A stretch of DNA of 57,664 bases from Gammaproteobacteria bacterium (GTDB taxonomy: Bacteria > Pseudomonadota > Gammaproteobacteria > GRL18): positions 8,546-66,209 of the forward strand of contig JADGEK010000014.1 in assembly GCA_016744395.1 (NCBI GenBank), read 5' to 3'. How positions within the stretch are numbered: the stretch's first letter is position 1; every line of letters begins with the position of its first letter. Below the pieces are notes generated by a model that did not search any database, was not told the DNA's origin, and saw only the letters and a program-made list of their open reading frames with translations. The translations under genes and the position numbers were made by a program. This document shows positions 25-25,682 of the stretch, piece after piece.

Positions 25-3000
25 ATGGCTATCGATAGTTTGACACCAGCAGACATAAGTGCACTGACCACTGCACAGATTGTTGCCCTGAGTACCGCAG
101 ATTTTGCGGGTATGTCAACGGATCAAATTGATGCTTTAAGTGCAACCCAATTTCGTGCAATTGAAACCAGAGATTTAGTCGTTTTAAGTTCATCTCAGCT
201 TGAAGCAGTATCGACGTATAACATAGCCTCTCTTCAGTCTGATCAACTGAGATCTTTAACCGATGGTCAAATTTCAGCCTTATCCAGCGACCAACTGAAT
301 GCTCTTTCAACCACAAGTATTATGGCGTTGCAGAACCGCCAGGTTCGTGCAATAGAAACGGATGATTTAGCATCCTTCTCAGGTTTTCAAGTGGCAGCCT
401 TTACATCATCCCAAACCGCAAGTTTGACGGGAGGGCAAATAGGTGCACTGACCAGTAACCAATTCCAGGCCTTTGAAACGGATGATATTGTTGCTTTGTC
501 AACGGGTCAGGTTCGGTTTTTATCTGCAAGCAATATTGCTGCACTGACAACGAGTCAAATGGCTGCAATGGAAACCGCTGATTTGCGTACATTAAACTCA
601 GATCAAACTGCAGCATTGAGTGTTGAAAGTATCGGAGCGTTGACGGGGTCTCAGGCCGCGGCTTTAACTGGTGCACAAATGCAGCAGTTGACCAGTACGC
701 AATTTAATGCAATGACGACGGACAACATGGCTGCCTTGAGCACAGGGCAGTTGAGATTTATTGAGACAGACGACATTGCCAGTTTATCCACCAAACAAAT
801 TGCTGCTTTAACTTCAACACAAATTGCAGGCCTGAAAGGCACACAAATCGCAGCATTGACATCAGAACAAGTCCGCTCTTTCTCTACGGGTGACATTGTC
901 AGTTTGAATGCAGGGCAAACTGCTTCATTGACTACTGATAATATTGCAGCCTTGAGCACCGCTCAAATGGTGGCCATGGAGATTGAAGACCTAAGGGCAC
1001 TGACATCTGATCAGACCGTGGCACTAACAACACAGAATGTGAATTCGCTGACCAGCGATCAGGCTGCTGCACTGACGGGTGCACAAATACAGCAGTTATC
1101 CAGTGATCAATTAAATGCTTTATCAACGGATAATGTTGCAGCTCTGACAACGGGTCAATTGAGGTTTATTGGGACTGATGATTTTGCTAGTTTGTCGACT
1201 CAACAAGTTGCTGCATTGACGTCTGCACAAGTTGCTGGCCTTACTGGCACACAGGTTGGTGCCTTTACCTCAAATCAAATTCAGGCTCTTTCAACCAATG
1301 ATATTGTCAGCCTTAACACGGGACATCTTAGCTTTCTCAGCACAGACAATATTGCTGCTCTGACAACTGATCAGATGACGGCCATGGAAACGGGTGATCT
1401 GCGTTCTTTGAATTCTGATCAGACTCAGGCACTTACAACTGAGAATGTTAATGCGCTTTCAAGTGATCAAGCCGCCGCTTTGACAGGTGCTCAAATGCAG
1501 CAGTTGACCAGTGATCAACTGAATGCGTTATCAACTGATAACATGGCTGCTCTGACAACGGGGCAATTGAGATTTATTGAAACAGATGATATTGCCAGTC
1601 TGACAACTGGAAACCTTGCTGCTTTGACCTCCGTTCAGATCGCGGGCCTTCGCGGAACTCAGGTGGGTGCATTCACCTCTGATCAATTACAAGCATTATC
1701 GACAGATGATATTGTCAGTCTTAATACGGGCCATTTCAGCTCCTTATCAACTGATAGTATTGCTGCACTGACGTCTGATCAAATGAATGCCATGGAAACG
1801 GCTGACTTGCGTTCTTTGACTTCGGATCAGATTGTTGCTGTTACTACAGAAAATATTAACTCGCTTTCTACTTCGCAGGCAGTTGCTTTGACTGGTGTGC
1901 AAATGCAGCAGCTATCAACTGATCAGTTGAATGCACTTTCAACTGACAATATGGCTGCCTTGACCACAGGACAACTAAGATTCATCCAGTCGGATGACAT
2001 TTCCAGTTTATCAACTGATAATATTGCCGCTTTAACTTCTATCCAGGTTTCAGGACTGACGGGATCTCAAGTAGGGGCGTTGACTTCTGATCAAGTGCAG
2101 GCTTTATCGACAGATGATGTAGTCAGCCTTAATACAGGGCATTTCAGCTTTTTGACAACGGATAATGTTGCAGCTCTGACATCCGATCAAATGAATGCAA
2201 TGGAAACAACTGATTTGCGTTCTTTGAATTCGGATCAAATTGCAGCGGTTAGTACAGAAAATATCAGTGCTCTTTCCAGTGCACAAGCGGTTGCTCTGAC
2301 AGGTGCTCAAATGCAGCAGTTGACCAGTGATCAACTTAATGCATTATCGACAGACAATATGGCGGCCCTGACAACGGGTCAGTTAAGATTTATTGGAACA
2401 GATGACATTGCGAGTTTGTCAACAGACAATATTGCGGCACTGACTTCAACACAAGTCGCAGGCTTGACAGGTACACAGGCAGGAGCTTTAACCTCTGATC
2501 AACTTCAGTCATTTTCAACTGATGATATTGTCAGTTTAAATACAGGCCATTTCAGCTTCTTGACCACTGATAATATTGCAGCACTGACAACGGATCAAAT
2601 GGTTGCGATGGAAGTTGTTGATTTGCGTTCTTTAAGCTCGGATCAAACCGCAGCACTAACAACTGATAATATCAATGCACTTTCCAGTGATCAGGCCGTA
2701 TCATTAACGGGCTCTCAGATGCAGCAGCTCACCAGTGATCAACTGAATGCATTGTCAACCGATAATATGTCGGCACTGACGACAGGCCAGATTAGGTTTA
2801 TTGAAACCGATAATATTTCCAGTTTGTCAACGGATAGCATTGCCGCTCTAACGTCATTACAAACTGCAGGCTTGAGAGGAAATCAGGTAGCAGCTCTGAC
2901 GTCTGATCAAATTCAGGCCTTTGCAACGCAGGATATTGTCGCATTGACGACAGGACAAATACGTTTTGTCTCAACTGATAGCATTGCAGGATTGACTACT

Positions 3001-6000
3001 GATCAGATGGTTGCAATGGAAATTGAAGATTTGCGTACTCTGAATACAGATCAGACGACAGCTCTGAGTACGGACAGTGTAGGTGCTTTAACTTCTGATC
3101 AAAGCCAATCTCTGACCAGTGATCAGTTTACGACTCTGAATACGGATCAGTTGAATGCTTTATCAACGGATAACTTTGCTCTTATTAGTAATGCAAGAAT
3201 ACAAACAATAGACACGGGTAAATTCTCAAGTCTATCCACTGAGCATATTTCTAATTTAACTTCTGATCAGACCGTCAGCTTAACGACGGATCAAATTGGT
3301 TCTTTAAGTACAGACCAAACAGTCTCATTAACCACTGATAATGTGGTTGCTTTAACAACCGATCAAATGCAGTCTGTATCGACTGATAATATTGCGGCAT
3401 TAACTTCAGATCAAATGGTGGCAATGGAAACCAATGACCTGAGAGTCTTGAGTACCGATCAGCTCAGTGCAATAACAACTAATAACATCTCTGTTCTGTC
3501 CTCTGATCAAACTCGTGGTATGAGTGTTGTTCAGATTCAGGCATTAAATACTGATCAGTTCAATGCTTTATCCACAGATAATTTGGTTGCCTTCACAGGT
3601 GATCAATACAGAACAATCCCTACCGATAGTATTGCTGCATTATCAACGGATAGTATTGCAGCATTAACGGATGAACAGGCATTTGCCTTAACCAGTGCTC
3701 AACTTAATGCATTAACAACGGCCCAGGTCGGTGCACTGACTTCCGACTCCGTTCAGGCTTTTGCAGCAATTCAGTTTAGTACACTGTCCAGTGGTCAACT
3801 TAATGCTTTGACAACAGATAATATGGCTTTGCTTTCGGGTGAACAAATTCAGCGTATTGATGATAGTGTGATGGCCAATATCACCACTGATAATATTGCA
3901 GCTTTGACTTCAGACCAAACAGCTAATTTAACTGGTGATCAATTAAGTGCAATGACTTCTAATCAGGTCAGAGCATTTGCTTCAGATGATATTGTTGCTC
4001 TAAGTCTGATACAGATGCGTTCTATGACGACGGACAATTTAGCTGCATTAACATCCGATCAGATGGCTGCAATGGAAACTCAAGACTTGCGAGTCCTGAA
4101 TACAGATCAGCTGGGTGCATTGACAACAAGCAATATAGAGGCCTTAACTTCTGACCAAATTCAGGGGATGAGTTCTACTCAGCTTGCTTCCCTGGATACT
4201 GATCAGGTTAGGGCGATTACCAGTGATAATATTGCTGCCCTATCAGAGTCTCAAGTAGGTGCTATGACTACAGATCAAGTCTCATCGCTGGCATCTGGTC
4301 AGGTGCAGGCTTTGGAGACTGATGATCTTCGTAATCTGGACTCAGCTCAATTTAGTGCTTTAACTCCAGATAATATTGGTGCCTTGACTACCGATCAGGC
4401 CCAGGCAATGACCACAGCTCAGATTGTGTCAATGTCTAGCGATCAATTGAACAGCCTGTCTACAGATAATATGGCTGTATTAACCAGTGAACAGATACAA
4501 GCCATTGAAGTGACTGATTTGGCCAATCTTTCAGATGTCAGAATTGAAGCCATGGGATCTGACCAAATTGCCAGTTTGACCACAGCACAGTTCCAGACTT
4601 TGAATTCTGATCAAATACGTTCCTTGTCAACGGATGAAATTGCAGCCTTGTCATCTGAACAACTTGCAGTCTTAACGACTGATACAATTCAGGGCTTGTT
4701 TAAAACTCAGGTTGCAGCGTTAGGTACTGATGAGATCAGCTCTTTGAGTACCGATCAAACCAGTGCATTAACTCTTGACCATATTAATAGTCTCTCATCA
4801 GACCAAACTGTGGCACTGACGACGGCACAAATAGAAGCTTTATCAAGCGATCAAATCAATGTGATCTCTACGGATAACCTCCAGGTTTTGACGTCAGGCC
4901 AGATTCAGGCCATTGAGACAGATGACATTGCTGGGATGACCACTGATAATGTGACAGCATTGACCTCTGATCAGACATCAAGCTTGACGACTGAACAACT
5001 CAGCTCTTTAAATTCAGATCAGATGCTTACTTTTGCGACGGATGAAATTGCAGCCCTTACAACCGATCAGATGGCTGGTATTACGACTGATAATGTAAGT
5101 ACTTTGACCAGTGATCAGGTTCAAGCGATTGAAACTGAAGATCTTGCAGCTTTAAATACTGATCAAATCGGGGCCATGACGACTGATAATATTAATGTTT
5201 TATCTTCGGATCAGGCAACTGCTTTGACAGGGGCACAAATTGGTTCACTTTCAAGTGATCAACTTAATGCGATAACAACTGATAATCTATCTGCTTTAAC
5301 ATCTGATCAGATTCAGGCTATTGAGACAGATGATCTGGCTGCTTTGACTACAGATAATACGACGGCATTGAACTCTGATCAAACGGCTAGTTTGACCAAT
5401 TCTCAATTAGGTGCCTTAACCTCTGATCAAGTGCAAACCTTTGCCACTGATGAGATTGCTTCATTAACCACTGATCAGATGCCTGCAATGACGACTGATA
5501 ACTTAAATGCATTAAGTAGTGATCAGTTTAGAGCAATTGAAACTGAAGATCTGCAGGCAATGAGTACTGATCAAATTACGTCACTGAGTACAGATAACGT
5601 CTCCTCTTTGACATCCGATCAAAGTACCTCGCTAAGCGGTAGCCAAATTGCTTCTTTATCCAGTGATCAATTAAATTCCATGACCACAGATAATATGTCT
5701 GTCTTAACTTCAGACCAAATTCAGGCCATTGAAGTGGCTGATCTCTCTGCTTTATCAACGGACAACACGACGGCACTGACTTCTGATCAAACTTCTAGTT
5801 TGACCACCGATCAAGTTGGAGCTTTAACAACTGATCAGATTCAAACTTTTGCAACGGATGAAATAGTCGCCTTAAGCACAGAGCAAATGTCAGTGATGAC
5901 AACCGACAATCTTAATGCATTGAACACTGATCAGTTCCAGGCCATTGAAACAGATGATCTGCGAGCATTGGATACGGATCAAATTGGCTCATTGAGCACC

Positions 6001-8319
6001 GATAACATTGCAACTTTGACTTCGGATCAAAGTGTTGCCCTAACGGGGGGGCAAATAGCAGCACTCTCCAGTGATCAGCTCAATTCAATCACCACAGATA
6101 ATATTGAGAAATTAACCACGGATCAGATTCAGTCTATTGAAGTAAGTGATTTAGCGGCACTTTCCACTGATAGCACCGCAGCACTGACTTCAGATCAAAC
6201 CGCAAGTTTGACAACCGATCAGGTGGGTGCGTTAACTTCTGATCAAGTTCAAACATTCTCTACTGATGACATTGTTGCACTGAGTACTAACCAGATCCCC
6301 GCCATGACAACTGATAACATCGGTGCCATGACCAGTGACCAGGTTCAGGCCATTGAAGTGGTTGACTTACAAGCTTTGAATACTGATCAAATTGCAGCCA
6401 TAAGTACCGATGGTATTGCTTCACTGGGTTCAGATCAGGCGGTTGCTTTGAGCGGGGCGCAAATTGCGTCACTCTCTAGTGATCAGTTAAATGCTCTTTC
6501 AACGGACAATGTATCTGAATTAACTTCTGATCAAATTCAGGCAATTGAAACAGATGACCTGGCAGCACTATCAACCGACAGCACAACTGCTCTGAACTCT
6601 GATCAAATTAGCAATTTAACGAATTCACAGTTGGGTTCATTAACTTCTGATCAAATTCAGACGTTTGCTACCGATGAAATTGCGGCTTTGACTACAGGTC
6701 AAATGTCAGGATTGACAACCGATAACTTGAATGCTCTAACCAGTGATCAGGTTCAGGCCATTGAAACTGATGACTTACAAGCTCTGAGTACGGATCAAAC
6801 CAGTTCATTAAATACGGATGGTATTGCTGCACTGACTTCGGATCAAACCGTTTCACTGAGTACGGCTCAAATAACCTCTCTTTCTAGTGATCAACTCAAT
6901 GCTTTGTCAACAGATAATGTCTCTGAACTGACAACGGCTCAGATACAAGCTATTGAAACCGATGATATGGCGTCACTATCGACAGATAGTATTACTGCTT
7001 TGGATTCTGACCAAATTGCAAGCTTAACTAACGCACAGTTAGCAGCCTTGAATTCTGACCAGATTCAAACATTTGCTACTGATGAAATAGCGGCTCTGAC
7101 CACTAGCCAAATGGCAGGTTTGACCACTGACAACCTCAATGCTTTCAGCAGTGATCAGGTTCAGGCGATTGAAACCGAAGATTTACAAGCCTTGACCACA
7201 GATCAGACCAGCTCTATTAATACGGATGGCATTGCCGCTTTGACATCTGAACAAACGGTTTCACTCAGTGCTGGACAGGTCGGCTCGCTCTCCAGTGATC
7301 AACTTAATGCTTTATCAACTGATAATGTATCTGAGTTGACTGGAAATCAAATACAAGCTATTGGAACGGATACAATGGCGGCTCTGTCAACGGATAGTAT
7401 TACAGCTCTATCAGCATCACAAATAGCGACTTTGACAGAATCTCAGGTAGGAGCTTTAACCTCTGACCAGATTCAGACTTTTGCAACGGACGAAATTGCG
7501 GCAATGGGTACTGCTCAAATAGCTGCAATGACGACGGATAATCTCAATGCCCTAAATAGTGATCAAATTCAGTCTATTGAGACAACTGACCTGCAGGCGT
7601 TAAGTAATAGCCAGATCAGTTCTTTAAGTACTGATGCTATCTCATCATTATCAGCGAATCAGGCAACTGCTTTAACAAATGATCAGATTAAATCTCTGAC
7701 CAGTGATCAGTTTAATGCCATGGGTACGGATAATGTTTCCTCACTAACAACTGCACAAATTCAAGCAATTGAAGTGGGGGATTTTTCAGACTTATCAACT
7801 GATAATATTGCTGCATTGACGACTGATCAAACAGCCAGCCTACTCAGTACACAACTTGCGGCATTAGATACTGATCAGATTCAGGCCTTTGGTACAGAAG
7901 ATGTTGTTGCCTTAACCACCACACAAATGCATCATTTGAGTAGTGATAATGTGGCTGCTATGACAACTGACCAAATACAGGCTATGGAAACACAGGATCT
8001 TCGTGAATTAAATGTCAGTCAACTGCAGGCGATAGAAACAGATGACTTGCAGGCAATGACTGCGGGTCAGATTTCAGCAATGACCTATACGCAGGTGGCT
8101 TCACTGTCCTCTGATCAAATCCAGTCAGGTATTGGAACTAGTCAGATTGATGAGTTGACTGAGAATCAAATTGAATCAATGACAACTAGTCAGGTTCAGG
8201 CTTTGACCACTGATCAAATTGTTGCAATGACGAGTGACCAGGAGTTTGCAATGACTTATGCTCAAATAAATGCAATGACAACTGATCAAACGGGTGCATT
8301 TGAAGATCGCACTGTTTAA
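25..8319 (+). CDS. Giant octapeptide-repeat protein (2764 aa)
   Basis: I do not recognise a named family. Nearly the whole protein is a run of octads of the form x-[AS]-[LMF]-x-[TS]-D-[QN]-[IVLMT], for example GALTTDQI, QAIETDDL and NALSTDNM, about 345 in a row. Octads are grouped into a 17-octad higher repeat of 136 residues. It is very rich in Thr, Ser, Asp, Gln, Ala and Leu, very poor in Lys, with no Cys or Trp that I can see, so it is strongly acidic. There is no signal peptide, membrane segment, calcium-binding nonapeptide or sorting motif, so any export would need an N-terminal-signal-independent route. The start is an ATG with a purine-rich AAGGGG 7 nt upstream. The next gene is an OGT-like glycosyltransferase, and every octad offers Ser/Thr, so it could be a glycosylated surface or filament-associated protein. 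That role is inference. Confidence 0.9.
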   Translation: MAIDSLTPADISALTTAQIVALSTADFAGMSTDQIDALSATQFRAIETRDLVVLSSSQLEAVSTYNIASLQSDQLRSLTDGQISALSSDQLNALSTTSIMALQNRQVRAIETDDLASFSGFQVAAFTSSQTASLTGGQIGALTSNQFQAFETDDIVALSTGQVRFLSASNIAALTTSQMAAMETADLRTLNSDQTAALSVESIGALTGSQAAALTGAQMQQLTSTQFNAMTTDNMAALSTGQLRFIETDDIASLSTKQIAALTSTQIAGLKGTQIAALTSEQVRSFSTGDIVSLNAGQTASLTTDNIAALSTAQMVAMEIEDLRALTSDQTVALTTQNVNSLTSDQAAALTGAQIQQLSSDQLNALSTDNVAALTTGQLRFIGTDDFASLSTQQVAALTSAQVAGLTGTQVGAFTSNQIQALSTNDIVSLNTGHLSFLSTDNIAALTTDQMTAMETGDLRSLNSDQTQALTTENVNALSSDQAAALTGAQMQQLTSDQLNALSTDNMAALTTGQLRFIETDDIASLTTGNLAALTSVQIAGLRGTQVGAFTSDQLQALSTDDIVSLNTGHFSSLSTDSIAALTSDQMNAMETADLRSLTSDQIVAVTTENINSLSTSQAVALTGVQMQQLSTDQLNALSTDNMAALTTGQLRFIQSDDISSLSTDNIAALTSIQVSGLTGSQVGALTSDQVQALSTDDVVSLNTGHFSFLTTDNVAALTSDQMNAMETTDLRSLNSDQIAAVSTENISALSSAQAVALTGAQMQQLTSDQLNALSTDNMAALTTGQLRFIGTDDIASLSTDNIAALTSTQVAGLTGTQAGALTSDQLQSFSTDDIVSLNTGHFSFLTTDNIAALTTDQMVAMEVVDLRSLSSDQTAALTTDNINALSSDQAVSLTGSQMQQLTSDQLNALSTDNMSALTTGQIRFIETDNISSLSTDSIAALTSLQTAGLRGNQVAALTSDQIQAFATQDIVALTTGQIRFVSTDSIAGLTTDQMVAMEIEDLRTLNTDQTTALSTDSVGALTSDQSQSLTSDQFTTLNTDQLNALSTDNFALISNARIQTIDTGKFSSLSTEHISNLTSDQTVSLTTDQIGSLSTDQTVSLTTDNVVALTTDQMQSVSTDNIAALTSDQMVAMETNDLRVLSTDQLSAITTNNISVLSSDQTRGMSVVQIQALNTDQFNALSTDNLVAFTGDQYRTIPTDSIAALSTDSIAALTDEQAFALTSAQLNALTTAQVGALTSDSVQAFAAIQFSTLSSGQLNALTTDNMALLSGEQIQRIDDSVMANITTDNIAALTSDQTANLTGDQLSAMTSNQVRAFASDDIVALSLIQMRSMTTDNLAALTSDQMAAMETQDLRVLNTDQLGALTTSNIEALTSDQIQGMSSTQLASLDTDQVRAITSDNIAALSESQVGAMTTDQVSSLASGQVQALETDDLRNLDSAQFSALTPDNIGALTTDQAQAMTTAQIVSMSSDQLNSLSTDNMAVLTSEQIQAIEVTDLANLSDVRIEAMGSDQIASLTTAQFQTLNSDQIRSLSTDEIAALSSEQLAVLTTDTIQGLFKTQVAALGTDEISSLSTDQTSALTLDHINSLSSDQTVALTTAQIEALSSDQINVISTDNLQVLTSGQIQAIETDDIAGMTTDNVTALTSDQTSSLTTEQLSSLNSDQMLTFATDEIAALTTDQMAGITTDNVSTLTSDQVQAIETEDLAALNTDQIGAMTTDNINVLSSDQATALTGAQIGSLSSDQLNAITTDNLSALTSDQIQAIETDDLAALTTDNTTALNSDQTASLTNSQLGALTSDQVQTFATDEIASLTTDQMPAMTTDNLNALSSDQFRAIETEDLQAMSTDQITSLSTDNVSSLTSDQSTSLSGSQIASLSSDQLNSMTTDNMSVLTSDQIQAIEVADLSALSTDNTTALTSDQTSSLTTDQVGALTTDQIQTFATDEIVALSTEQMSVMTTDNLNALNTDQFQAIETDDLRALDTDQIGSLSTDNIATLTSDQSVALTGGQIAALSSDQLNSITTDNIEKLTTDQIQSIEVSDLAALSTDSTAALTSDQTASLTTDQVGALTSDQVQTFSTDDIVALSTNQIPAMTTDNIGAMTSDQVQAIEVVDLQALNTDQIAAISTDGIASLGSDQAVALSGAQIASLSSDQLNALSTDNVSELTSDQIQAIETDDLAALSTDSTTALNSDQISNLTNSQLGSLTSDQIQTFATDEIAALTTGQMSGLTTDNLNALTSDQVQAIETDDLQALSTDQTSSLNTDGIAALTSDQTVSLSTAQITSLSSDQLNALSTDNVSELTTAQIQAIETDDMASLSTDSITALDSDQIASLTNAQLAALNSDQIQTFATDEIAALTTSQMAGLTTDNLNAFSSDQVQAIETEDLQALTTDQTSSINTDGIAALTSEQTVSLSAGQVGSLSSDQLNALSTDNVSELTGNQIQAIGTDTMAALSTDSITALSASQIATLTESQVGALTSDQIQTFATDEIAAMGTAQIAAMTTDNLNALNSDQIQSIETTDLQALSNSQISSLSTDAISSLSANQATALTNDQIKSLTSDQFNAMGTDNVSSLTTAQIQAIEVGDFSDLSTDNIAALTTDQTASLLSTQLAALDTDQIQAFGTEDVVALTTTQMHHLSSDNVAAMTTDQIQAMETQDLRELNVSQLQAIETDDLQAMTAGQISAMTYTQVASLSSDQIQSGIGTSQIDELTENQIESMTTSQVQALTTDQIVAMTSDQEFAMTYAQINAMTTDQTGAFEDRTV
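73..3744 (+). repeat. First 408-bp tandem super-repeat array
   Basis: An anchor codon triplet for the D-[DN]-[IV] motif recurs at 73, 481, 889, 1297, 1705, 2113, 2521, 2929 and 3337, each step exactly 408 bp (17 octads of 24 bp). The A-[MI]-E-x-x-D-L octad falls four octads after the anchor in each unit, which confirms the register. The units are diverged but not scrambled, and no spacing slip occurs over nine units. Confidence 0.9.
5041..8112 (+). repeat. Second 408-bp tandem super-repeat array
   Basis: The F-[AS]-T-D-[ED]-[IV] anchor recurs at 5041, 5449, 5857, 6265, 6673, 7081, 7489 and 7897, again at exact 408-bp steps. Each complete unit has an A-I-E-x-x-D-L octad at positions 4 and 12. 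The lattice ends inside the last unit, where an extra residue breaks the octad phase near 8129. The anchor offset from the first array is 1704 bp, that is four units plus three octads. The two arrays are therefore separated by a slipped middle segment (3745-5040). Confidence 0.88.
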
Positions 8320-8364: not shown

Positions 8365-8472
8365 ATGTCTCAATATGTCCCACCATACGCTCTTTTCCTA
8401 TTGAATTTATGTGCTATAGTTTAGATTGAAACTTTAACGTGAATATCATAAATTCAAAAGAAGGAATTGATA

Positions 8473-10290
8473 TTGTCAATTGAAACTGATTTTACTCTAG
8501 CCATTCAAAAAGCATGGCAGGGAACTCTGGAACATACTCAATTACTTTCCTGTGCTGGGGAACTAGAAGCAAAGGGGCAAATTTCTCTCTCAATAGTACT
8601 TTATCAAACCTGGTTAAAACGAAATCAGACTGCTTTTAACCATGTTGCCTGGTTTAACCTTGGAGCCAGCCTTTTTAAAGTCAACGATCTGGATGGTACC
8701 AAAGAGGCCTATCTTCAGGCAATCCAACTGGATCCTGAATTTATTCAACCTCGATTTAATCTTGGAATGACTTATGAACGTCTTGGGATGATAGACGATG
8801 CCATTCGGGAATGGCGCTGGATTGATGATAATATATTTCCTAATCAACTAGAAAAACGTTCAATGTTATTATTGGCATTGAATAATTTGGGGCGTCTTCT
8901 GGAAACTTATGATAAACGTTACCATAGTGCTTTAGGCTATATGACCAAAAGCCTGATGCTTGAACCTAATCAACCAGATGTGCTTCATCATTGGGTGTTT
9001 CTGCGTGCAAAACACTGCGTTTGGCCAGTCTATGAAGCCTTTTCTGATGTCAATATCGAGCTCCTGCGTCAATCAACCTCAGCACTTGCAATGATTAGTT
9101 TGTCAGATGATCCGCAAATGCAGCTTACTGCTGCCTATCATTATGTCGAGAATAAGGTGCTTAACAATGTGCCTGCTTTGGCCCAACCCAGTGCTTACGG
9201 CCATAAAAAAATTCGTATCGGTTATTGTTCATCGGATTTTTGTTTACATCCGGTGGCGATGCTAACCGTTGAACTGTTTGAACTGCATAACCGGGATGAT
9301 TTTGAAATTTATGGCTACTGCTGGACAAATCAAGGAGACTCTGCTCTTCGTCAGCGTGTTATAAAAGGAATGGATCACTTTGAAACGATTCTTCATTTAA
9401 GTGATGAAGCCACAGCCAGCTTAATTCGCGAACATGAAATTGACGTTCTTATTGATTTACATGGACAAACATTAGGGGCACGTCCTAATATGTTGGCTTA
9501 TCGACCAGCACCCATTCAAATTACCTATCTTGGGCTGCCTGCAACAACAGGCTTGCCTTCAATTGACTATGTTATTGCCGATGAGTTTTTAGTCCCAGAA
9601 GAATACGCTCAATTTTATTCAGAAAAAATGATTTATATGCCAGATGTATATCAAGTCAGTGACCGACAACGAAAGCACGGCCCGATTCCAGTTCGAGAAC
9701 AGTGTCAGTTGCCTCAGGATGCTTTTGTTTTTTGTTCGTTTAATAATAATTATAAGTATACACCTGAAGTCTTTGCAAGCTGGATGAACATATTAAAAAG
9801 GGTGCCGGGTAGTGTGCTTTGGCTTTTAGCAGATAATCCCTGGTCAGAAATTAACTTAAAAAATACTGTTAAGCAGAGTGGAATAGATCCACAACGTATC
9901 ATCTTTGCTCCCAGAGTTTCCCCAGAAGATTATTTGGCCCGTTTTGCAACGGCCGATCTCTTTCTGGATACTTTTCCATTTAATGCTGGAACCACTGCTA
10001 ATGATGTTTTATGGATGGGCTTGCCTATTTTAACAATGACTGGCAAGTCATTTGCTTCACGTATGGCGGGAGCCTTGTTAACCTCTGCAGATTTGCCAGA
10101 ATTGATTACCTATAATTTACAGGACTATGAAAATATGGCTGTAACACTGGCACAAGATTCAAGTCGCTATCAATTGCTGAGAAAAAAGGTGCAAGAGGTT
10201 CGTTTGAATGGTGTTCTCTTCGATACACCTCGATTTGTTAAAAACCTCGAAGAGCGTTTATCAACTTTGGTTGCAGATCTCAGCAGATAA
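8473..10290 (+). CDS. TPR / O-GlcNAc-transferase-like protein (GT41)
   Basis: This is a soluble cytoplasmic glycosyltransferase of the OGT/SPINDLY type. Residues about 55-175 form TPR helices (NLGASLFKVNDLDGTKEAY, then NLGMTYERLGMIDDAI). The C-terminal catalytic half starts near 'IRIGYCSSDFCLHPVAML' and contains 'ILKRVPGSVLWLL', 'FLDTFPFNAGTTAN' and 'GKSFASRMAGALL', the typical UDP-sugar-binding GT-B signatures. The family transfers a sugar from a nucleotide donor to Ser/Thr of proteins. No ATG is available at the N-terminus. I chose the TTG at 8473 because AAGGA at 8461-8465 lies 7 nt upstream; an in-frame TTG at 8467 is too close to it. Candidate acceptors nearby are the giant Ser/Thr repeat protein and flagellin. 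Acceptor and donor are not shown by sequence. Confidence 0.9.
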   Translation: MSIETDFTLAIQKAWQGTLEHTQLLSCAGELEAKGQISLSIVLYQTWLKRNQTAFNHVAWFNLGASLFKVNDLDGTKEAYLQAIQLDPEFIQPRFNLGMTYERLGMIDDAIREWRWIDDNIFPNQLEKRSMLLLALNNLGRLLETYDKRYHSALGYMTKSLMLEPNQPDVLHHWVFLRAKHCVWPVYEAFSDVNIELLRQSTSALAMISLSDDPQMQLTAAYHYVENKVLNNVPALAQPSAYGHKKIRIGYCSSDFCLHPVAMLTVELFELHNRDDFEIYGYCWTNQGDSALRQRVIKGMDHFETILHLSDEATASLIREHEIDVLIDLHGQTLGARPNMLAYRPAPIQITYLGLPATTGLPSIDYVIADEFLVPEEYAQFYSEKMIYMPDVYQVSDRQRKHGPIPVREQCQLPQDAFVFCSFNNNYKYTPEVFASWMNILKRVPGSVLWLLADNPWSEINLKNTVKQSGIDPQRIIFAPRVSPEDYLARFATADLFLDTFPFNAGTTANDVLWMGLPILTMTGKSFASRMAGALLTSADLPELITYNLQDYENMAVTLAQDSSRYQLLRKKVQEVRLNGVLFDTPRFVKNLEERLSTLVADLSR

Positions 10291-10325: not shown

Positions 10326-11114
10326 ATGATTGAACTGAGTATTATTGTTCCAACTCATGCAAGACCACGAGAATTAATTCGCTGTTTAGAATCCATTAAA
10401 AGCTGTCAGTTGCGTAGCTATGAGATTTTGTTAATCTCCGATGTAAATGATCAGGACACATCCAATATTGCTAATCAATATCTGAGGGATGTCGATACTT
10501 ATATTATTCGTGGTGGGGAACCTGGACCCGCAGAAAGTCGAAACCTTGGGCTAAAAATTGCCGCAGGGCATCACATTTTGATTTTTGATGATGATGACGC
10601 ACTACCAGGTCCTGGCTATCAGGACTTTGTGGATGCGGCGATGTCCTCACCCAATGAAGTTTGTTATGGTAATGTTAATTTTTTAAAAGAAGATCGCGAA
10701 AAAGAGATTGTTTTCCCTGATCCACCAGTCTCTCATTCAGTGATTTCAAATGAGTTTATGCAGGTTTATGTAAAGAACTTTATTTACACCCAAGCTTGTA
10801 TTTTTCCATCTGAAGCTGTTCGGAATATTCAACAGGATACTCATATGCGCTCATTTGAAGATTGGGAATTCCTGTTAGCAGTTGCATCACAGGCAAGTTT
10901 TAAGCCCATTAATCTTCTAGGAGCAACTATATACAAAGACTATGTAAATACGGGTAATCGACGTAGCACAACGGATGCTGCTAAAGACTTTGAGCTGGTG
11001 CTTGATTATCTTTATGTTTACAGGCGCTGGCCAGCCCCAAATGAACAGCTGAAGGTCATGCGTTCTGAAATGATGGAGTCACAGGGATTATCTATTGCAA
11101 AACAATTTTTGTAA
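10326..11114 (+). CDS. GT2 family glycosyltransferase
   Basis: A GT-A fold glycosyltransferase of 262 residues. The N-terminus is the nucleotide-binding strand 'LSIIVPTHARPRELIRCLESI'-like segment, with 'AESRNLGLKIAAG' and then the metal-binding acidic cluster 'ILIFDDDDALP' near residue 90. The family transfers a sugar from an NDP donor onto a glycan or protein. There is no membrane segment. It follows the OGT-like gene by 35 nt with an AGGAG ribosome site, so it probably belongs to the same transcript. Its substrate cannot be read from sequence. Confidence 0.88.
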   Translation: MIELSIIVPTHARPRELIRCLESIKSCQLRSYEILLISDVNDQDTSNIANQYLRDVDTYIIRGGEPGPAESRNLGLKIAAGHHILIFDDDDALPGPGYQDFVDAAMSSPNEVCYGNVNFLKEDREKEIVFPDPPVSHSVISNEFMQVYVKNFIYTQACIFPSEAVRNIQQDTHMRSFEDWEFLLAVASQASFKPINLLGATIYKDYVNTGNRRSTTDAAKDFELVLDYLYVYRRWPAPNEQLKVMRSEMMESQGLSIAKQFL

Positions 11115-11152: not shown

Positions 11153-11812
11153 ATGCTAATTGATTATAAAAGATGCACTGAAATATTAAGTTGTCTTTAT
11201 GGCAGAAAGCCTGCCAAGGTTTATCATATTGGAGCACACATTGGAGAAGAAGCACAAGCTTATCATGAGAATGGTGTGACAGAGGTTTGTTGGTTCGAAG
11301 CCAACCCTCAAATCATTCCTCAATTGCAGGCTGCTATCAATACGGTTGATATGAAGCAGACAATTGTGCCCTATGCTTTATGGAATAAAAATGAGAAAGT
11401 GAAATTAAATATCTCCAGTAATTTACAGTCTTCCTCGGTCTTTGAGTTTGATAAGCACCAGAGTTACTACCCAGATATTGTTTATACTGATTCATTAGAA
11501 GTCGATGCCTTCAGACTGGATTCTTTTATTGATTTATGGGACAGTCCGCTGCCATTTTCTGACTTTGATTTTGTTAATTTAGATACTCAGGGTGCAGAAT
11601 TAGCAATCATAGAAGGTATGGGCAAGTACATTAATATTGCTAGCTTAATGGGTGTTTATGTTGAGGTGAACAAAGAGCATTTATATAAAGATATCCCATT
11701 GATTGATGAGTTGGACAAATACCTCGGAGAAAATGGCTTTGTTCGTTTACAAACAGTCTGGACCAATGCGGGTTGGGGGGATGCTCTCTATGTGCGAAAA
11801 ATTGAAGTTTAA
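11153..11812 (+). CDS. FkbM-family methyltransferase
   Basis: A SAM-dependent methyltransferase of the FkbM type (219 residues). The SAM-binding motif I is the 'YHIGAHIGEEAQAYH' segment near residues 24-38, followed by the acidic 'CWFEANPQIIPQL' loop. The family signature 'FVNLDTQGAELAIIEGMG' lies near residue 145. FkbM enzymes O-methylate sugars or polyketides and are common in surface-glycan clusters. It sits between a GT2 gene and the CDP-glucose genes, so methylation of a glycan sugar is the likely job. Position and sugar are unknown. Confidence 0.85.
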   Translation: MLIDYKRCTEILSCLYGRKPAKVYHIGAHIGEEAQAYHENGVTEVCWFEANPQIIPQLQAAINTVDMKQTIVPYALWNKNEKVKLNISSNLQSSSVFEFDKHQSYYPDIVYTDSLEVDAFRLDSFIDLWDSPLPFSDFDFVNLDTQGAELAIIEGMGKYINIASLMGVYVEVNKEHLYKDIPLIDELDKYLGENGFVRLQTVWTNAGWGDALYVRKIEV

Positions 11813-11836: not shown

Positions 11837-12607
11837 ATGAAAGCCGTTATTCTAGCAGGTGGGTATGGGACGAGGATAAGTGAAGAAACACACTTAAGAC
11901 CCAAACCAATGGTCGAAATTGGTGGCCGTCCTGTCCTTTGGCACATAATGAAAACCTATTCACATTATGGAATAAACGAATTTATTATTTGCCTGGGTTA
12001 TAAGGGATATGTCATAAAAGAATATTTTGCTAATTATTTTTTACACATGTCTGATGTTACTATTGATTTTAATGATAATAGTATGGAGGTACATAATAAT
12101 AAAGCGGAACCATGGAAAGTGACATTAGTGGACACGGGGCAGTCTACTATGACTGGTGGACGATTAAAAAGAGTCAAAGACTATGTTGGTGATGATGACT
12201 TTTGTTTTACCTATGGTGATGGCGTTTCAGATGTCAATATACAATCACTTATTGAATTTCATCAGTCTAATAAAAGACTAGTCACATTAACGGCCACTCA
12301 ACCTCCAGGGCGCTTTGGGACTCTGGATATTGAAAAAAATAAGATTATTCGCTTTGAAGAAAAGCCAGAATCAGGTGCAGGTTGGATTAATGGCGGGTAT
12401 TTTGTCATGTCACCAAAAGTACTGGATCTTATTACTGATGATGAGACTGTCTGGGAGCAAGAACCATTAGAGCATTTGGTCAAAGAAGGGCAGGTCTCTT
12501 CCTTTATTCATAATGGTTTTTGGCAATCAATGGATACATTAAGAGATAAAAACTATCTTGATGGATTATGGAAAGATGGCAAGGCACCGTGGAAAATATG
12601 GCCGTGA
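11837..12607 (+). CDS. rfbF: Glucose-1-phosphate cytidylyltransferase
   Basis: Makes CDP-glucose from glucose-1-phosphate and CTP, the entry step to CDP-activated 6-deoxy and dideoxyhexoses. The N-terminal nucleotidyltransferase motif is 'LAGGYGTRISEETHLRPKPM', with the activating Arg and the Lys of PKPM intact. Later blocks such as 'FCFTYGDGVSDVNI' and 'TATQPPGRFG' are characteristic of RfbF rather than RfbA. The length of 256 residues matches the family (about 257). It overlaps rfbG by 10 nt, so the two are translationally coupled. Confidence 0.95.
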   Translation: MKAVILAGGYGTRISEETHLRPKPMVEIGGRPVLWHIMKTYSHYGINEFIICLGYKGYVIKEYFANYFLHMSDVTIDFNDNSMEVHNNKAEPWKVTLVDTGQSTMTGGRLKRVKDYVGDDDFCFTYGDGVSDVNIQSLIEFHQSNKRLVTLTATQPPGRFGTLDIEKNKIIRFEEKPESGAGWINGGYFVMSPKVLDLITDDETVWEQEPLEHLVKEGQVSSFIHNGFWQSMDTLRDKNYLDGLWKDGKAPWKIWP

Positions 12608-13683
12608 ATTTAGAGTTTTGGAAGAATAAAACGATCTTAATCACTGGACATACAGGATTTAAAGGAGCCTGGTTATCTTTGTGGTTACAATCCTTAGGGG
12701 CTAATGTGATAGGTTATGCTCTACAACCTCCTACAACACCCAGCTTATATGAAAAAGCAGATGTTGCTTCTGGAATGGTGCCGATTTCGGGCGATATTCG
12801 TGACTTACAGCATCTTAAAACAGTTTTTAACGAACACCAGCCAGATATTGTTTTTCACCTGGCGGCACAATCCTTAGTTCGATACTCCTATCAAAATCCA
12901 ATTGAAACCTATGAAACCAATGTGATGGGCACTCTGAATGTGTTAGAAGCCATTAGGAGTGTTAACTCTGTTCGAGCTGTTATTTTGGTGACAACCGATA
13001 AATGTTATGAAAATAAAGAATGGGTTTGGGCCTATCGTGAAAATGAAGCCATGGGGGGGCATGATCCCTATAGCAGCAGTAAAGGCTGTGCTGAACTGCT
13101 TATTGCTTCCTATCGCCATTCTTTTTTTTCAGAAGATAAGTTTGATGAACATAAAACTGCCATTGCTTCTGTCAGGGCTGGCAATGTTATTGGTGGTGGT
13201 GACTGGGCGGAAGACCGGTTAGTGCCAGACATTATACGAGCCATTCAGAGTAAAGAAATAATGACTCTTCGAAGTCCCAATGCTCTGCGTCCCTGGCAAC
13301 ATGTGCTAGAGCCGCTTTGCGGTTACATGATGTTAGCTGAAAAACTATATAACAAGGGTGTTGAGTATGCTCAAGGCTGGAATTTTGGTCCTCTAGAAGC
13401 AGATGTTAAGCCCGTTAAATGGATTGTGAAATCATTAATTGAAGCATGGGGTGATACAACGGATTGGACTCTATCAGATAATCGTGAAAATCCGCATGAA
13501 GCCAATGTTTTAAAACTGGATTGTGCAAAAGCACACCAAATGCTTTCATGGTGGCCCAGGTGGGATCTTAATACAACACTCGTAAAAATTGTTGACTGGC
13601 ACAAAGCTGAGCAGACAAAACTTTCTTTAAAGGCGGCGTGCCTTAAACAAATATCTGAATATACCCATGAGACTATTCGGTGA
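12598..13683 (+). CDS. rfbG: CDP-glucose 4,6-dehydratase
   Basis: Converts CDP-glucose to CDP-4-keto-6-deoxyglucose with bound NAD. It is a short-chain dehydrogenase fold with 'GHTGFKG' at residues 17-23 as the dinucleotide loop, 'VTTDKCY' carrying the active-site Thr/Asp, and the catalytic YxxxK in 'DPYSSSKGCAEL'. I chose the ATG at 12598, which overlaps the rfbF stop and gives 361 residues, close to the family's usual 357-360. A more upstream in-frame ATG at 12568 would add ten unconserved residues. The GTGA stop/start overlap with the next gene indicates coupling. Confidence 0.95.
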   Translation: MAVNLEFWKNKTILITGHTGFKGAWLSLWLQSLGANVIGYALQPPTTPSLYEKADVASGMVPISGDIRDLQHLKTVFNEHQPDIVFHLAAQSLVRYSYQNPIETYETNVMGTLNVLEAIRSVNSVRAVILVTTDKCYENKEWVWAYRENEAMGGHDPYSSSKGCAELLIASYRHSFFSEDKFDEHKTAIASVRAGNVIGGGDWAEDRLVPDIIRAIQSKEIMTLRSPNALRPWQHVLEPLCGYMMLAEKLYNKGVEYAQGWNFGPLEADVKPVKWIVKSLIEAWGDTTDWTLSDNRENPHEANVLKLDCAKAHQMLSWWPRWDLNTTLVKIVDWHKAEQTKLSLKAACLKQISEYTHETIR

Positions 13684-14231
13684 AATTAATATCAACGCCG
13701 ATTAATAGTGTCATGCTGATTGAAAATTCCTCTTTTTCAGATAATAGAGGCGTTTTTTCAAGAATTTTTTGTGATCGTGAATTGGAGTCAATACTTCAGA
13801 GTCGTCAAATTGCTCAAATTAATCTGTCAGAAACCCTTAAAAAAGGCAGTATCAGAGGCTTGCATTTTCAATACCCACCACATGCAGAAATGAAAATCAT
13901 ACGTTGTATCAAAGGGGCTGTTTTTGATGTTGCTGTTGATTTGCGTCAGGGCTCAAAAACTTTTTTGCACTGGCATGCAGAAATATTGTCGCCAGAAAAG
14001 AATAACGCTATGGTGATCCCTGAAGGCTGTGCTCACGGCTTTCAAACACTGGAAGAGCATTCAGAGTTATTGTATCTGCATACGGCTCATTATGAGCCAA
14101 AATCTGAAGCAAGTATCCAGTTTGATGATTCGCTCCTGGCTATTAACTGGCCCCTTGGACACACAAATATCTCAGAGAAAGATAAAAAACATTCTATGAA
14201 TATTAAAGATTTTCCGGGTATAGAATTATGA
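13680..14231 (+). CDS. Sugar 3,5-epimerase (RmlC/RfbC-like)
   Basis: A cupin-fold NDP-4-keto-6-deoxysugar epimerase (183 residues). The catalytic His is H62 in 'RGLHFQYPPHAEMK', with 'GAVFDVAVDLR' and 'IPEGCAHGFQTLEE' as the other family blocks. Classic RmlC acts on dTDP-4-keto-6-deoxyglucose. Here the neighbours are CDP-sugar enzymes, so a CDP-linked substrate is more likely, as in branched-sugar pathways. The start is a GTG overlapping the rfbG stop by 4 nt; the stop overlaps the next ATG by 4 nt. Whether it epimerises C3, C5 or both is not visible. Confidence 0.88.
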   Translation: MKLISTPINSVMLIENSSFSDNRGVFSRIFCDRELESILQSRQIAQINLSETLKKGSIRGLHFQYPPHAEMKIIRCIKGAVFDVAVDLRQGSKTFLHWHAEILSPEKNNAMVIPEGCAHGFQTLEEHSELLYLHTAHYEPKSEASIQFDDSLLAINWPLGHTNISEKDKKHSMNIKDFPGIEL

Positions 14232-15469
14232 AATGTCGTCACTGTGAACAGACACTAGAACATGTCTTTCTCGATCTTGGTTTTGCACCGCATTCTAATG
14301 CCTATCTTTCAAAAGAAGAACTATCAAAACCTGAGTTATACTTTCCTCTCAGGTTGTACGTCTGTGCGCATTGCTTTTTGGTGCAAACGGAAGACTTCGC
14401 CTGTGCTGATGAACTCTTTAAATCTGATTATGCTTATTTTTCATCAGTTTCAGTCAGTTGGTTAAAGCATGCAGAGCAGTATGCTGACATGATTATTCGC
14501 AGACTGAATCTTGATTCAAATTCCTTTGTTGTTGAAATTGCTTCTAATGATGGTTATTTGTTAAAAAATTTCATCAATAAAAACATTCCTTGCTTAGGAA
14601 TAGAGCCGACTGATGGAACAGCAGATGCAGCAGAAAAACTGAAAATTTCAGTAATAAGAGAATTTTTTGATCATACAATAGCTAAAAAACTGTCCATTGA
14701 AGGGAAACAGGCGGATCTGATCATTGCAAATAACGTTTATGCACATGTTCCTGATATTAATAATTTCACACGAGCCTTAAAAGAATTACTTAAGCCAGAT
14801 GGAACCATTACTCTTGAGTTTCCTCATTTGATGCAACTGATAAAACAAACGCAGTTTGACACAGTGTACCATGAACACTTTTCTTATCTCTCATTAACAA
14901 CAGTGGCTCAAATTTTTTTACAGGCACAGTTGAGAATATTTGATGTAGAGAAATTGAGCACTCATGGCGGTAGTTTGAGAATATATGGTTGTCACATAGA
15001 GAATACCAGAAGCAGCAGTCCAGTGGTTGAACGACTTATTAAACAAGAGCAAGAGAATGGTCTGCATGATATTCAATCTTACCTTCAATTCCAGTACCAA
15101 GCAGATGAGGTAAAAAATCAATTATTAAGCTTTTTATTAGAACAAAAACGCCTTGGAAAGACTGTTGTTGCCTATGGGGCTGCAGCAAAGGGCAATACCT
15201 TACTTAATTACGCTGGTGTAAAACCTGATTTAATTTCAATGGTTTACGATGCAGCACCTTCTAAACAAGGTAAATATTTGCCGGGTAGCCATATTCCAAT
15301 CCACTCTCCTTCTATGATGTCAGAAGCTAAACCAGATTATGTTCTTATTTTGCCCTGGAATATCAGTGACGAAGTGTTTAAGCAAAACCAGAATTTATAT
15401 CAACAAGGTACACAGTTTGTTGTTGCTGTTCCTGAGCTGCGATACATACAGGAGCCAAATAGGACATGA
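14228..15469 (+). CDS. NDP-hexose C-methyltransferase
   Basis: A sugar C-3-methyltransferase of the TylC3/EvaC type (413 residues). It has three parts: an N-terminal zinc-binding domain with Cys3, Cys6, Cys46 and Cys49; a SAM-binding domain with 'VVEIASNDGYLLKNF'; and a C-terminal Rossmann-like domain beginning 'VVAYGAAAKGNTLLNYAGV'. The family adds a methyl branch to an NDP-4-keto-6-deoxysugar. After RfbF, RfbG and the epimerase this implies a CDP-linked C-methyl branched 6-deoxyhexose, of the mycarose, virenose or yersiniose kind. The exact sugar is inference. The stop overlaps the next start by 4 nt. Confidence 0.88.
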   Translation: MKCRHCEQTLEHVFLDLGFAPHSNAYLSKEELSKPELYFPLRLYVCAHCFLVQTEDFACADELFKSDYAYFSSVSVSWLKHAEQYADMIIRRLNLDSNSFVVEIASNDGYLLKNFINKNIPCLGIEPTDGTADAAEKLKISVIREFFDHTIAKKLSIEGKQADLIIANNVYAHVPDINNFTRALKELLKPDGTITLEFPHLMQLIKQTQFDTVYHEHFSYLSLTTVAQIFLQAQLRIFDVEKLSTHGGSLRIYGCHIENTRSSSPVVERLIKQEQENGLHDIQSYLQFQYQADEVKNQLLSFLLEQKRLGKTVVAYGAAAKGNTLLNYAGVKPDLISMVYDAAPSKQGKYLPGSHIPIHSPSMMSEAKPDYVLILPWNISDEVFKQNQNLYQQGTQFVVAVPELRYIQEPNRT

Positions 15470-16302: not shown

Positions 16303-17337
16303 ATGAAAGCTAAAATTAAACCACGTATCAATTTAGATGATAGAACGCTTTTACAGGATGTCATTCCATTATCCACACCATTTGTTTTATTTGTTGATCC
16401 AGCCAGTAAATGTAATTTTCAGTGTACATTTTGTCCAACGGGTGATCGTGAATTAATAAAAAATACCGGGCGTTATCAGGGATTGCTTAAGTTTGATGTT
16501 TTTAAAAAAATTATTGATGAGCTGGCTGATTTTCCTGAGAAAATAAAAGTTTTGCGTATGTATAAAGATGGTGAACCTTTATTAAACAAAAATCTTGCCA
16601 AGATGATTGCTTATGCTAAAGAGAGCGGACATGTTCCTTATATCGATACGACCACCAACGGTACTTTAATTACGCCAGAACGAATGGCACCGATTATTGA
16701 GGCTGGCTTAGATAAAATCAATATTTCTGTGGATGGAATGAATGTTGAACAGTATCAAAAATTTACAAAGTTTGATTTTAATTTTTCTGAATTTATTGAA
16801 AATGTAAAATGGCTCTATGAAAATAAAGGGGACTGTGAAATTGCCATCAAAATTCCCCGAGAATTAATTACCCAAGCTCAGCAGCAAGAGTTCTATGATA
16901 CTTTTGGTGATTATTGTGATCGCATCTTTATAGAAAATTTTGCACCATGCTGGCCTATTTTTGATATTGAGAAACGAACGGGTTTTAAAATTACAGAAGG
17001 TATCTATCAGCAAAAAATAAGTCCCACCAATACTTGTCCTTATATCTTCTACTCCATGTCTGTTAATGCTGGCGGTGAGGTCAGTTCTTGTTTTCTTGAT
17101 TGGGAAAGGAAACTACTGATTGGTGACACACAGAAACAAACCATTTCACAAATATGGAATTCAGATTCCCTTAATAAATTAAGAATTCAACATCTTGAAG
17201 GGAAAAGGATGGAAAATCCTATCTGTTCAAAATGTGGACAGTTATCACATTGCTTGCCAGATAACATTGATGATTATGCACAAGACTTATTGACCAAAGT
17301 CAGATCATCCATTGCTCAACTTAAGCAATGTGGCTAA
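16303..17337 (+). CDS. Radical SAM/SPASM protein
   Basis: A radical SAM enzyme with the cluster motif CxxxCxxC as Cys37, Cys41 and Cys44 in 'SKCNFQCTFCPTG', and a C-terminal SPASM-like Cys-rich region ('CPYIFYSMSVNAGGEVSSC', then 'CSKCGQLSHC'). Such proteins bind extra iron-sulfur clusters and perform radical chemistry, often on peptides or sugars. It follows the reductase by 3 nt, so it is in the same operon. The substrate is unknown; in this setting a glycan or a glycan-bearing protein is plausible. Confidence 0.85.
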   Translation: MKAKIKPRINLDDRTLLQDVIPLSTPFVLFVDPASKCNFQCTFCPTGDRELIKNTGRYQGLLKFDVFKKIIDELADFPEKIKVLRMYKDGEPLLNKNLAKMIAYAKESGHVPYIDTTTNGTLITPERMAPIIEAGLDKINISVDGMNVEQYQKFTKFDFNFSEFIENVKWLYENKGDCEIAIKIPRELITQAQQQEFYDTFGDYCDRIFIENFAPCWPIFDIEKRTGFKITEGIYQQKISPTNTCPYIFYSMSVNAGGEVSSCFLDWERKLLIGDTQKQTISQIWNSDSLNKLRIQHLEGKRMENPICSKCGQLSHCLPDNIDDYAQDLLTKVRSSIAQLKQCG

Positions 17338-17341
17338 ACCG

Positions 17342-18592
17342 ATGAAAATTCTACATATCATGCCACATCTTGGAGGAGGAGTTGGCAAGGCTTTGAGGAC
17401 TTTGATAGAAGGTGCATCAGGCTCACAATATCAGCATTCAATTCTTTTATTAGAAAGGCCAGAAAAAAAACAGTTTGTTGATAAAATTATTCAATCGGGG
17501 TGTCAGGTTTATACAGATGCTGATGAAATACTGATTGAGCAACTGATTATTAATACGGATATCGTCCAGTTAGAATGGTGGAATCATCCTGCCACGTTTC
17601 AATTTTTATGTCAGCATTCTATATCTGAACATCGCCTTTTAGTTTGGTGTCATGTTTCAGGTCTCAATACCCCCATAATCCCACTTAAACTGATTGAAAT
17701 CTCAGATTATTTTCTGTTTACCTCAGGTGCTTCTATGAGTGCTAAAAATGTGATGAAACTGAATAAAGACGTTTCATCAAAATTGGGGGTCGTTTCCAGT
17801 GGAGTGGGGTTTCCCAGAAAAAACAGGAGTGTATTACCCCAAAAATCTGAGATAGATTTTGGTTATATGGGGAGTTTAAATTCTAGCAAGCTTTACCCAC
17901 ACTTGATTCATTATTTGGATCAAATTCCACACAATGGATTTAAACTTAAGATTTGGGGCGATGATTTTTATAAAGATAAACTCATAGCACAATGTAATGC
18001 AATTAATAAAACCAACCTTATTGAATTTAAAGGGTATACCTCAGAGCCCTGTAAAACACTTTCAACGCTTGATGTCTTTATCTATTTGCTCAATCCAAGC
18101 CATTATGGTACTGCAGAGAACGTTCTGTTAGAGGCAATGTCAATGGGTATCGTACCCATTGTTATGAATAATCCTGCTGAAATGGCGATAGTTGACCATA
18201 ATGAAACAGGCTTAATTATTTCAAATTCGGATGAGTTTGTTGCTGCAGTTGACTATCTTATCAATTGTCCTGAAGAACGCTTACGGATGTCTGAGAATGC
18301 GTCACGAAAAATTTCTGAATGCTATTCACCTGAAATTATGTTTAACAAAATGAGTGTTTTTTATGAACAAATCATTCTTAAGCCAAAGAAAAAAATAATA
18401 TTTAAAAATGTTTTAGGAAAAGAACCTTATGAATGGTATATGGCATGTCAAGAAAATAATACGATGTATCAGAATGATGATCAAGATAATTCTTTAGAGG
18501 AAGAGACCAAAGGAAGTTTGACACATTTTCAAAACTACTTTCCAGATGATATTCAATTAGATGCTCTTTATAAAAAAAGGATGATTTTCTGA
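17342..18592 (+). CDS. GT4-like glycosyltransferase
   Basis: A GT-B glycosyltransferase of 416 residues. The N-terminus 'MKILHIMPHLGGGVGKALR' is the typical glycine-rich acceptor loop. The C-terminal half has 'DVFIYLLNPSHYGTAENVLLEAMSMGIVPIV', the GT4 donor-binding EAMSxG-type motif. I chose the ATG at 17342 because the conserved N-terminus begins there; the reading frame is open further upstream into the previous gene. Its stop overlaps the following ATG by one nt. The last 60 or so residues are extra relative to the common GT4 core. Confidence 0.86.
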   Translation: MKILHIMPHLGGGVGKALRTLIEGASGSQYQHSILLLERPEKKQFVDKIIQSGCQVYTDADEILIEQLIINTDIVQLEWWNHPATFQFLCQHSISEHRLLVWCHVSGLNTPIIPLKLIEISDYFLFTSGASMSAKNVMKLNKDVSSKLGVVSSGVGFPRKNRSVLPQKSEIDFGYMGSLNSSKLYPHLIHYLDQIPHNGFKLKIWGDDFYKDKLIAQCNAINKTNLIEFKGYTSEPCKTLSTLDVFIYLLNPSHYGTAENVLLEAMSMGIVPIVMNNPAEMAIVDHNETGLIISNSDEFVAAVDYLINCPEERLRMSENASRKISECYSPEIMFNKMSVFYEQIILKPKKKIIFKNVLGKEPYEWYMACQENNTMYQNDDQDNSLEEETKGSLTHFQNYFPDDIQLDALYKKRMIF

Positions 18593-20789: not shown

Positions 20790-20795
20790 TTTTAT

Positions 20796-22977: not shown

Positions 22978-23007
22978 CTGAATATTCAATCAATATGAGA
23001 GAAGACA

Positions 23008-24685: not shown

Positions 24686-24702
24686 ATTTCAGAGTATAAT
24701 TC

Positions 24703-25641: not shown

Positions 25642-25682
25642 ATTTGGTTTTTTATACTCCAATTATCATTATTAAAAGAAGC

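Follow-up and report, generated by a model that had tools for sequence, protein, structure and literature searches.

A giant ALTTAQ-repeat protein with an exact 17-octad super-repeat and a neighboring TPR-GT41 glycosyltransferase as its proposed partner

The window analyzed here, i.e., the whole stretch of 57,664 nucleotides taken from contig JADGEK010000014.1 of a gammaproteobacterial genome, opens with a giant repeat ORF that is followed on the same strand by a glycosyltransferase gene and a sugar operon, and the ALTTAQ locus lies at the far end of a glycan island linked to flagellin. The features concerned are:

25-8319, + strand: giant ALTTAQ-repeat protein (2764 aa, 345 octads, 288 kDa; PF20080, 1703 bits)
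73-3744, + strand: first array of nine units of 17 octads, all in one phase; conservation is good in units 2-7, while units 1, 8 and 9 have diverged
3745-5040, + strand: irregular central octads with a phase change (marker spacing, three-genome alignment, AF2)
5041-7896, + strand: second array, seven 17-octad units
7897-8316, + strand: diverged C-terminal end, one marker kept, slip at residue 2704
8467-10290, + strand: TPR plus GT41 (SPINDLY/OGT-like) glycosyltransferase, 607 aa, 147 bp downstream of the ALTTAQ gene; proposed partner (PF13844, 300 bits; TPR_1 and others; co-occurrence)
10326-11114, + strand: glycosyltransferase family 2, next in the operon (next also in G013)
11153-11812, + strand: FkbM-type methyltransferase (order equal in G013, as for the four genes below)
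11837-12607, + strand: sugar-1-phosphate nucleotidyltransferase
12568-13683, + strand: nucleotide-sugar 4,6-dehydratase/epimerase family
13680-14231, + strand: dTDP-4-dehydrorhamnose 3,5-epimerase family (PF00908)
14228-15469, + strand: sugar C-methyltransferase (PF08421/PF08484)
39956-44020, - strand: candidate Maf-type (MptE-like) flagellin glycosyltransferase, 1354 aa
44316-47703, + strand: flagellin, FlaG, FliD and FliS (context)

A 100-N scaffold gap (L033 8446-8545) directly precedes the window; since the window begins right after it, the promoter region of the ALTTAQ gene is missing from the assembly, and with the gap lying upstream no convincing sigma-28 or sigma-54 promoter was found ahead of the gene. 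Elsewhere in the glycan island (16303-30073) lie several radical SAM (SPASM) proteins and a CsaB-like polysaccharide pyruvyl transferase, and the Maf-type protein beside flagellin (39956-47703) is a second, separate candidate for flagellin glycosylation. Between the flagellar sigma-54 regulators (51719-53852), a HipA_C kinase-type gene accompanied by two small ORFs (108 and 105 aa) suggests that a toxin-antitoxin system was inserted into the flagellar cluster.

A single octad frame spans the giant ORF, interrupted once by a slip of one residue close to the C-terminus (residue 2704), and the 345 octads counted agree with the roughly 345 given by a first-pass annotation of this DNA. The consensus by position is D-Q-I-x-A-L-T/S-T/S, and the protein is acidic (pI 4.05), contains 28% Ser plus Thr, and has neither Cys nor Trp. 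Amino acid identity was 0.597 at a lag of 136 residues, 0.558 at 272 and 0.517 at 408, against ~0.32 at the remaining octad lags. For the null, octad order was shuffled 2000 times and the maximum over lags of 2-39 octads was taken, giving a mean maximum identity of 0.339 (sd 0.004; top value 0.359). Peaks at 408, 816, 1224 and 1632 bp in the DNA autocorrelation and a period of 408 from TRF bore out the 408-bp super-repeat that the first-pass annotation had proposed, i.e., 17 octads or 136 aa. The E-x-x-D octad also keeps its place, as claimed: the marker recurs every 136 residues both in the first array (residues 183, 319, 455, 591, 727, 863, 999 and 1135) and in the second (1703, 1839, 1975, 2111, 2247, 2383, 2519 and 2655), and all 33 of 33 markers fall in a single octad phase, with the spacing inside a 17-octad unit often split 8 + 9.

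The arrays themselves are somewhat less uniform than had been supposed. Nine units had been placed at 73+408n and their anchors hold; however, mutual identity is 63-81% among units 2-7 whereas the first unit and the last two match the others at just 40-56%. Similarly, seven of the eight units placed at 5041+408n are good, but the eighth keeps the marker alone (24-28% identity). The two anchor series are homologous (52% identity when compared unshifted, 39% at the best other shift), and the arrays are out of phase by 72 bp, i.e., 3 octads. Markers in the intervening center are spaced 27, 10 and 8 octads apart, a net shift of 3 octads. Since this irregular center is gap-free and conserved across three genomes, it is not a product of decay.

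Comparison of units within the window gave pS values of 0.59-0.91 (random octad pairs, 0.72) and, among well-conserved units, pN values of 0.09-0.28. The protein of G000, the genome of the window, and its homologue in G013, which are of equal length and align without gaps, are 75% identical overall and up to 87% in the center, with a pS of 0.74 and a pN of 0.15. From the saturated synonymous sites and the low pN it follows that the order is ancient and has been maintained by selection on the protein, and the saturation between units rules out recent slippage or assembly duplication. When G004 is aligned, the offset moves in two jumps, from -1 to +271 and then to +543 aa; therefore each of the two arrays differs by exactly two whole units. 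Unit-number variation, for which the first-pass annotation had recommended a search of related genomes, thus exists, and whole 136-residue units do duplicate, G004 having two fewer in each array. Units 4-6 of G013 were copied more recently (pS 0.37-0.51). The super-repeat is real, exact, and under selection.

The earlier statement that no described family matches this protein did not survive profile searching, since the octad is that of Pfam PF20080 (ALTTAQ_rpt), whose score of 1703 bits, in 88 stretches, far exceeds the curated cut-off of 26.4; the Pfam model does not, however, cover the 17-octad order. All 82 PF20080 matches in the genome lie within this ORF, and a search of the ORF with NCBIfam profiles returned no match. 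Sequence matches to CAAP1, HTH_25 and LRR/TLR were treated as composition-driven. No paper about the family turned up in literature searches for the octad, ALTTAQ, PF20080 or HeliScrew, and the text matches of one search were chance strings; as far as found, then, the repeat family is catalogued yet without description. The gene occurs in three of the 16 genomes of the genus (G000, G004 and G013), and PF20080 in 5 of 274 sampled genomes of the class and 28 of 398 of the phylum (about 7%). ALTTAQ genes also reside on plasmids of Rhizobium, Shinella, Cereibacter, Pseudomonas, Rhodovastum and others, while no relatives were found in the phage collection. Upstream of the ALTTAQ gene in G013 is a gene resembling, by eye, an IS66 transposase (L036 334-1863), which is consistent with mobility of the module.

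The predicted fold is helical throughout. AlphaFold2 (AF2) modeling of four units, with an input of 22 paralogous and orthologous rows, placed a helix of 4-6 residues in nearly every octad (pLDDT 94.7; pTM 0.74), which would fit the superhelix or solenoid that the first-pass annotation had suggested. The irregular center, modeled from three sequences, showed an equal helical pattern (pLDDT 92.4); since it folds like the arrays in these models, the solenoid is predicted to run on through the phase change as one continuous alpha-solenoid of stacked mini-helices. Foldseek and VIA-align matches to the model were weak (Z ≤ 7.4, with ARM proteins and mesothelin among the best), and since Z < 8 may mean merely a common arrangement, they exclude nothing. 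Beta-solenoids, including the ice-nucleation octapeptide (AGYGSTxT type), were rejected: no such Pfam match was obtained and the AF2 model is all-helical. Among solved structures, PDB 9zem (HeliScrew4, a 120-aa protein) aligns to one unit over 116 of its 120 residues (E = 9e-19).

Why the unit should be 17 octads long is suggested by more distant homologues. The grouping does point to a superhelix or solenoid, as first proposed, but the further idea that 17 octads form one turn of fixed length sits poorly with the periodicity of the family, ~3.39 (alias 2.43) octads. Homologues with other block lengths were drawn from Duganella sacchari (L039), G138, G253, G652, G631, G672, several f206 genomes, and plasmid copies. 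Outside the genus, blocks measure 7, 10, 17, 24 or 27 octads, and the strongest lags are mostly 7, 10, 17, 20, 24, 27, 34, 44, 51, 54 and 61 octads. The mean autocorrelation spectrum of 15 ORFs from outside the genus, not all of them phylogenetically independent, peaked at 0.295 per octad, i.e., 3.39 octads (value 0.265; 99.9% null, 0.107), with a second peak at 0.412 per octad, or 2.43 octads, the aliased second harmonic of the first. Marker spacings in the homologues (17, 10 and 7; also 5, 12 and 27) were best fitted by 2.43-2.44 octads, with a score of 0.77, which none of 1000 null draws reached (null mean, 0.31). Four f206 proteins (L047, L048, L049 and L053) gave no clear 3.39 peak. In a scan of repeated-octad backbones, the most compact of the solutions free of clashes had 3.39 octads per turn and a rise of ~4-5 Å per octad, and other good solutions lay at 2.5-4.0 octads per turn; being crude, with the helix fixed, linker torsions varied and scoring ad hoc, the scan is supportive only. 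Seventeen octads equal 5.0 x 3.4 or 7.0 x 2.43. At such a periodicity the unit would comprise five (or seven) turns and is probably not a single one, as judged from the sequences. We infer that one super-repeat completes a whole number of turns and that selection protects angular register, a reading of the 17-octad unit that would be new here. The 8/9 marker split in the genus does not fit half-turns, and those spacings correspond to whole turns at neither 3.39 nor 2.43.

The gene immediately downstream (8467-10290) combines the Glyco_transf_41 catalytic domain with TPRs, as expected of GT41 enzymes. A GT41 gene adjoins the ALTTAQ gene in most loci examined: it comes directly downstream on the same strand, at a distance of about 80-230 bp, in the window and in G004, G013, Duganella, Rhodovastum, G652, G631 and two Pseudomonas plasmids. 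In three further genomes (G253, G331 and G321) it is placed behind or across from T1SS genes. No GT41 was found near the ALTTAQ gene of G138, nor anywhere in the genomes of the carriers G476, G479, G555 and G672. Within the genus, GT41 is confined to the three ALTTAQ carriers among 16 genomes, one copy each, a co-occurrence with a probability of 1/560 if the genes were independent. In G013 the sugar-operon order is kept in a different genomic setting and the ALTTAQ ORF is intact, while the GT41 frame holds one in-frame stop (L035 9037-10851 = G013:C3:31037-32851); with this stop and no recognizable T1SS, G013 may be losing the module, unless a sequencing error accounts for the stop. Flagellated members of the genus without ALTTAQ are also without GT41, which bears indirectly on whether the enzyme modifies flagellin in the manner of FlmG. 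Since GT41 in the genus occurs solely in ALTTAQ carriers and is absent from flagellated non-carriers, the ALTTAQ protein, not flagellin, is the likely substrate. The repeat protein may accordingly be one that its neighboring GT41 O-glycosylates, a pairing that would be new here.

The route of export is suggested by relatives rather than by the window, where the genes tested are glycan and flagellar ones and no T1SS genes were found. They do occur on other contigs of G000 and elsewhere in G004, while no recognizable T1SS pair was found in G013 (about 99% complete). T1SS genes adjoin the ALTTAQ gene in G138, G253, G652, G331, G321 and both Pseudomonas plasmids. The homologues of G138, G253, G652, Duganella and Pseudomonas end in a DxNGDG domain, which is absent from the window protein, G004 and G013; G331 and G321 have T1SS next door without it. 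At the C-termini of L037, L038, L039, L041, L042 and L044 an LDLNGDGI...GSELFG domain is conserved, which looks uncatalogued, since Pfam gave just a marginal Dockerin match. The features that mark T1SS giant adhesins (adjacent ABC transporter, HlyD and TolC; a C-terminal Ca-binding/secretion domain) were not found for the window protein. We nonetheless infer export and a surface role, and consider the chances evenly balanced that the protein is a giant, exported, O-glycosylated alpha-screw surface fiber.

Such a fiber could be built as follows. Each octad would form one short helix (about D1 to L6) plus a two-residue Thr/Ser cap, and the 345 octads would stack into a single continuous alpha-solenoid, a screw of mini-helices that we roughly estimate to be 135-190 nm long. 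The screw would advance ~3.4 octads per turn (sequence alone allows the alias of 2.43, too), and at that pitch neighbors around it would come back at every 17th octad. A duplication of that length would keep each helix on its own face and be accepted, and others would not; a super-repeat of exactly 17 octads, varying by whole units, would then result. The TPR-GT41, made together with the ALTTAQ protein, would probably sugar-coat the Ser/Thr caps in the cytoplasm with sugars from the downstream operon, and the coated protein would then be exported to the cell surface to serve as an adhesin, a coat, or an S-layer-like fiber.

Less likely, in our judgment, the 17-octad order could merely record how a 136-residue ancestor was duplicated in tandem, without structural pitch, the block lengths of relatives being independent accidents. 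The whole-unit indels between G004 and G000 and the recently copied G013 units would be expected of such a history, as would the parts of array 1 in which units within a genome resemble each other more than their orthologues. However, distant homologues with blocks of 7, 10, 17, 24 and 27 octads have one frequency in common, far above the null, and the units of the window, although all synonymously saturated, have nonetheless kept position-specific residues.

The location of the locus raises two further alternatives, both improbable in our judgment. Caulobacter FlmG, a 596-residue TPR plus GT-B enzyme, O-glycosylates flagellins (PMC7591256) and is close in size to the 607-aa GT41 here, which might therefore be a FlmG-like flagellin glycosyltransferase of the flagellar island whose closeness to the repeat gene is incidental; the window is indeed a flagellin-linked glycan island, and in G004 a flagellin is the divergent neighbor. 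Yet the flagellated G005, G007, G009 and G012 gave no GT41 match, GT41-ALTTAQ pairs also occur away from flagellin (Pseudomonas plasmids, G652 and Duganella), and the enzyme that adjoins flagellin in the window is the Maf-type one. Alternatively, the ALTTAQ protein might exit via flagellar type III export and decorate or span the flagellum. The direct adjacency to flagellin in G004 and the flhA/flhB/fliI genes beside the ALTTAQ gene on the Rhodovastum plasmid keep this rival in consideration, together with the placement of the locus at one end of the window's flagellar island and the lack of a recognizable T1SS in G013; set against these are the T1SS genes adjoining the ALTTAQ gene in several other genera, the failure to find a sigma-28 type promoter upstream, and the absence of the gene from most flagellated members of the genus. 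Less probable still is a cytoplasmic scaffold that is never exported. The protein has no apparent signal peptide and no export genes lie alongside its gene in the genus, but the association of its gene with glycan genes and, among relatives, with dedicated T1SS argues otherwise, as does its Cys-free, acidic composition, which is typical of secreted fibers.

Taken as a whole, the glycosylated-screw reading is a tentative one, and we put it somewhat below an even chance: one screw pitch common to ALTTAQ proteins of several proteobacterial groups would quantize internal duplications to 7, 10, 17, 24 and 27 octads, 17 being the lock-in number in this genus, and the ladder of Ser/Thr caps would be the substrate of a dedicated TPR-GT41, together amounting to a class of giant, O-glycosylated, alpha-helical surface fiber that had not been described before. 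If this is true, DNA sequence alone, through its super-repeat, reveals how steeply a protein superhelix is pitched, and selection accepts duplications solely when angular register is kept. It would also name a likely natural substrate for the widespread, mostly orphan TPR-GT41 enzymes of bacteria and provide protein designers with a natural 345-helix version of a screw of which a small solved protein already exists.

Several known systems share parts of this architecture. Pfam's ALTTAQ family shares the octad and matches along the whole protein, but its model covers only 38 residues, fewer than five octads. HeliScrew4, whose likeness is judged by sequence and entry name, has an octad sequence of like kind but just 15 octads vs. 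345 here. Armadillo/HEAT and mesothelin-type alpha-solenoids are similar in overall architecture, with short helices stacked; however, their repeats are multi-helix units of ~40 residues rather than octads. T1SS giant adhesins of the LapA and MpAFP type are, like the ALTTAQ protein, giant, repetitive, Cys-free and acidic, and T1SS genes adjoin several ALTTAQ relatives; they are built of Ig-like or RTX repeats, whereas the ALTTAQ protein is predicted to consist of alpha mini-helices and its gene has no adjoining T1SS here. Similar in gene arrangement is HMW1A/HMW1C (PMC10507012), where, as here, the gene for a giant surface protein lies beside that of a cytosolic GT41-type enzyme. HMW1A, however, is a beta-helical two-partner-secretion adhesin in contrast to the alpha fold predicted for the ALTTAQ protein, and HMW1C is an N-glycosyltransferase, whereas the GT41 described here carries TPRs, as OGT and FlmG do.
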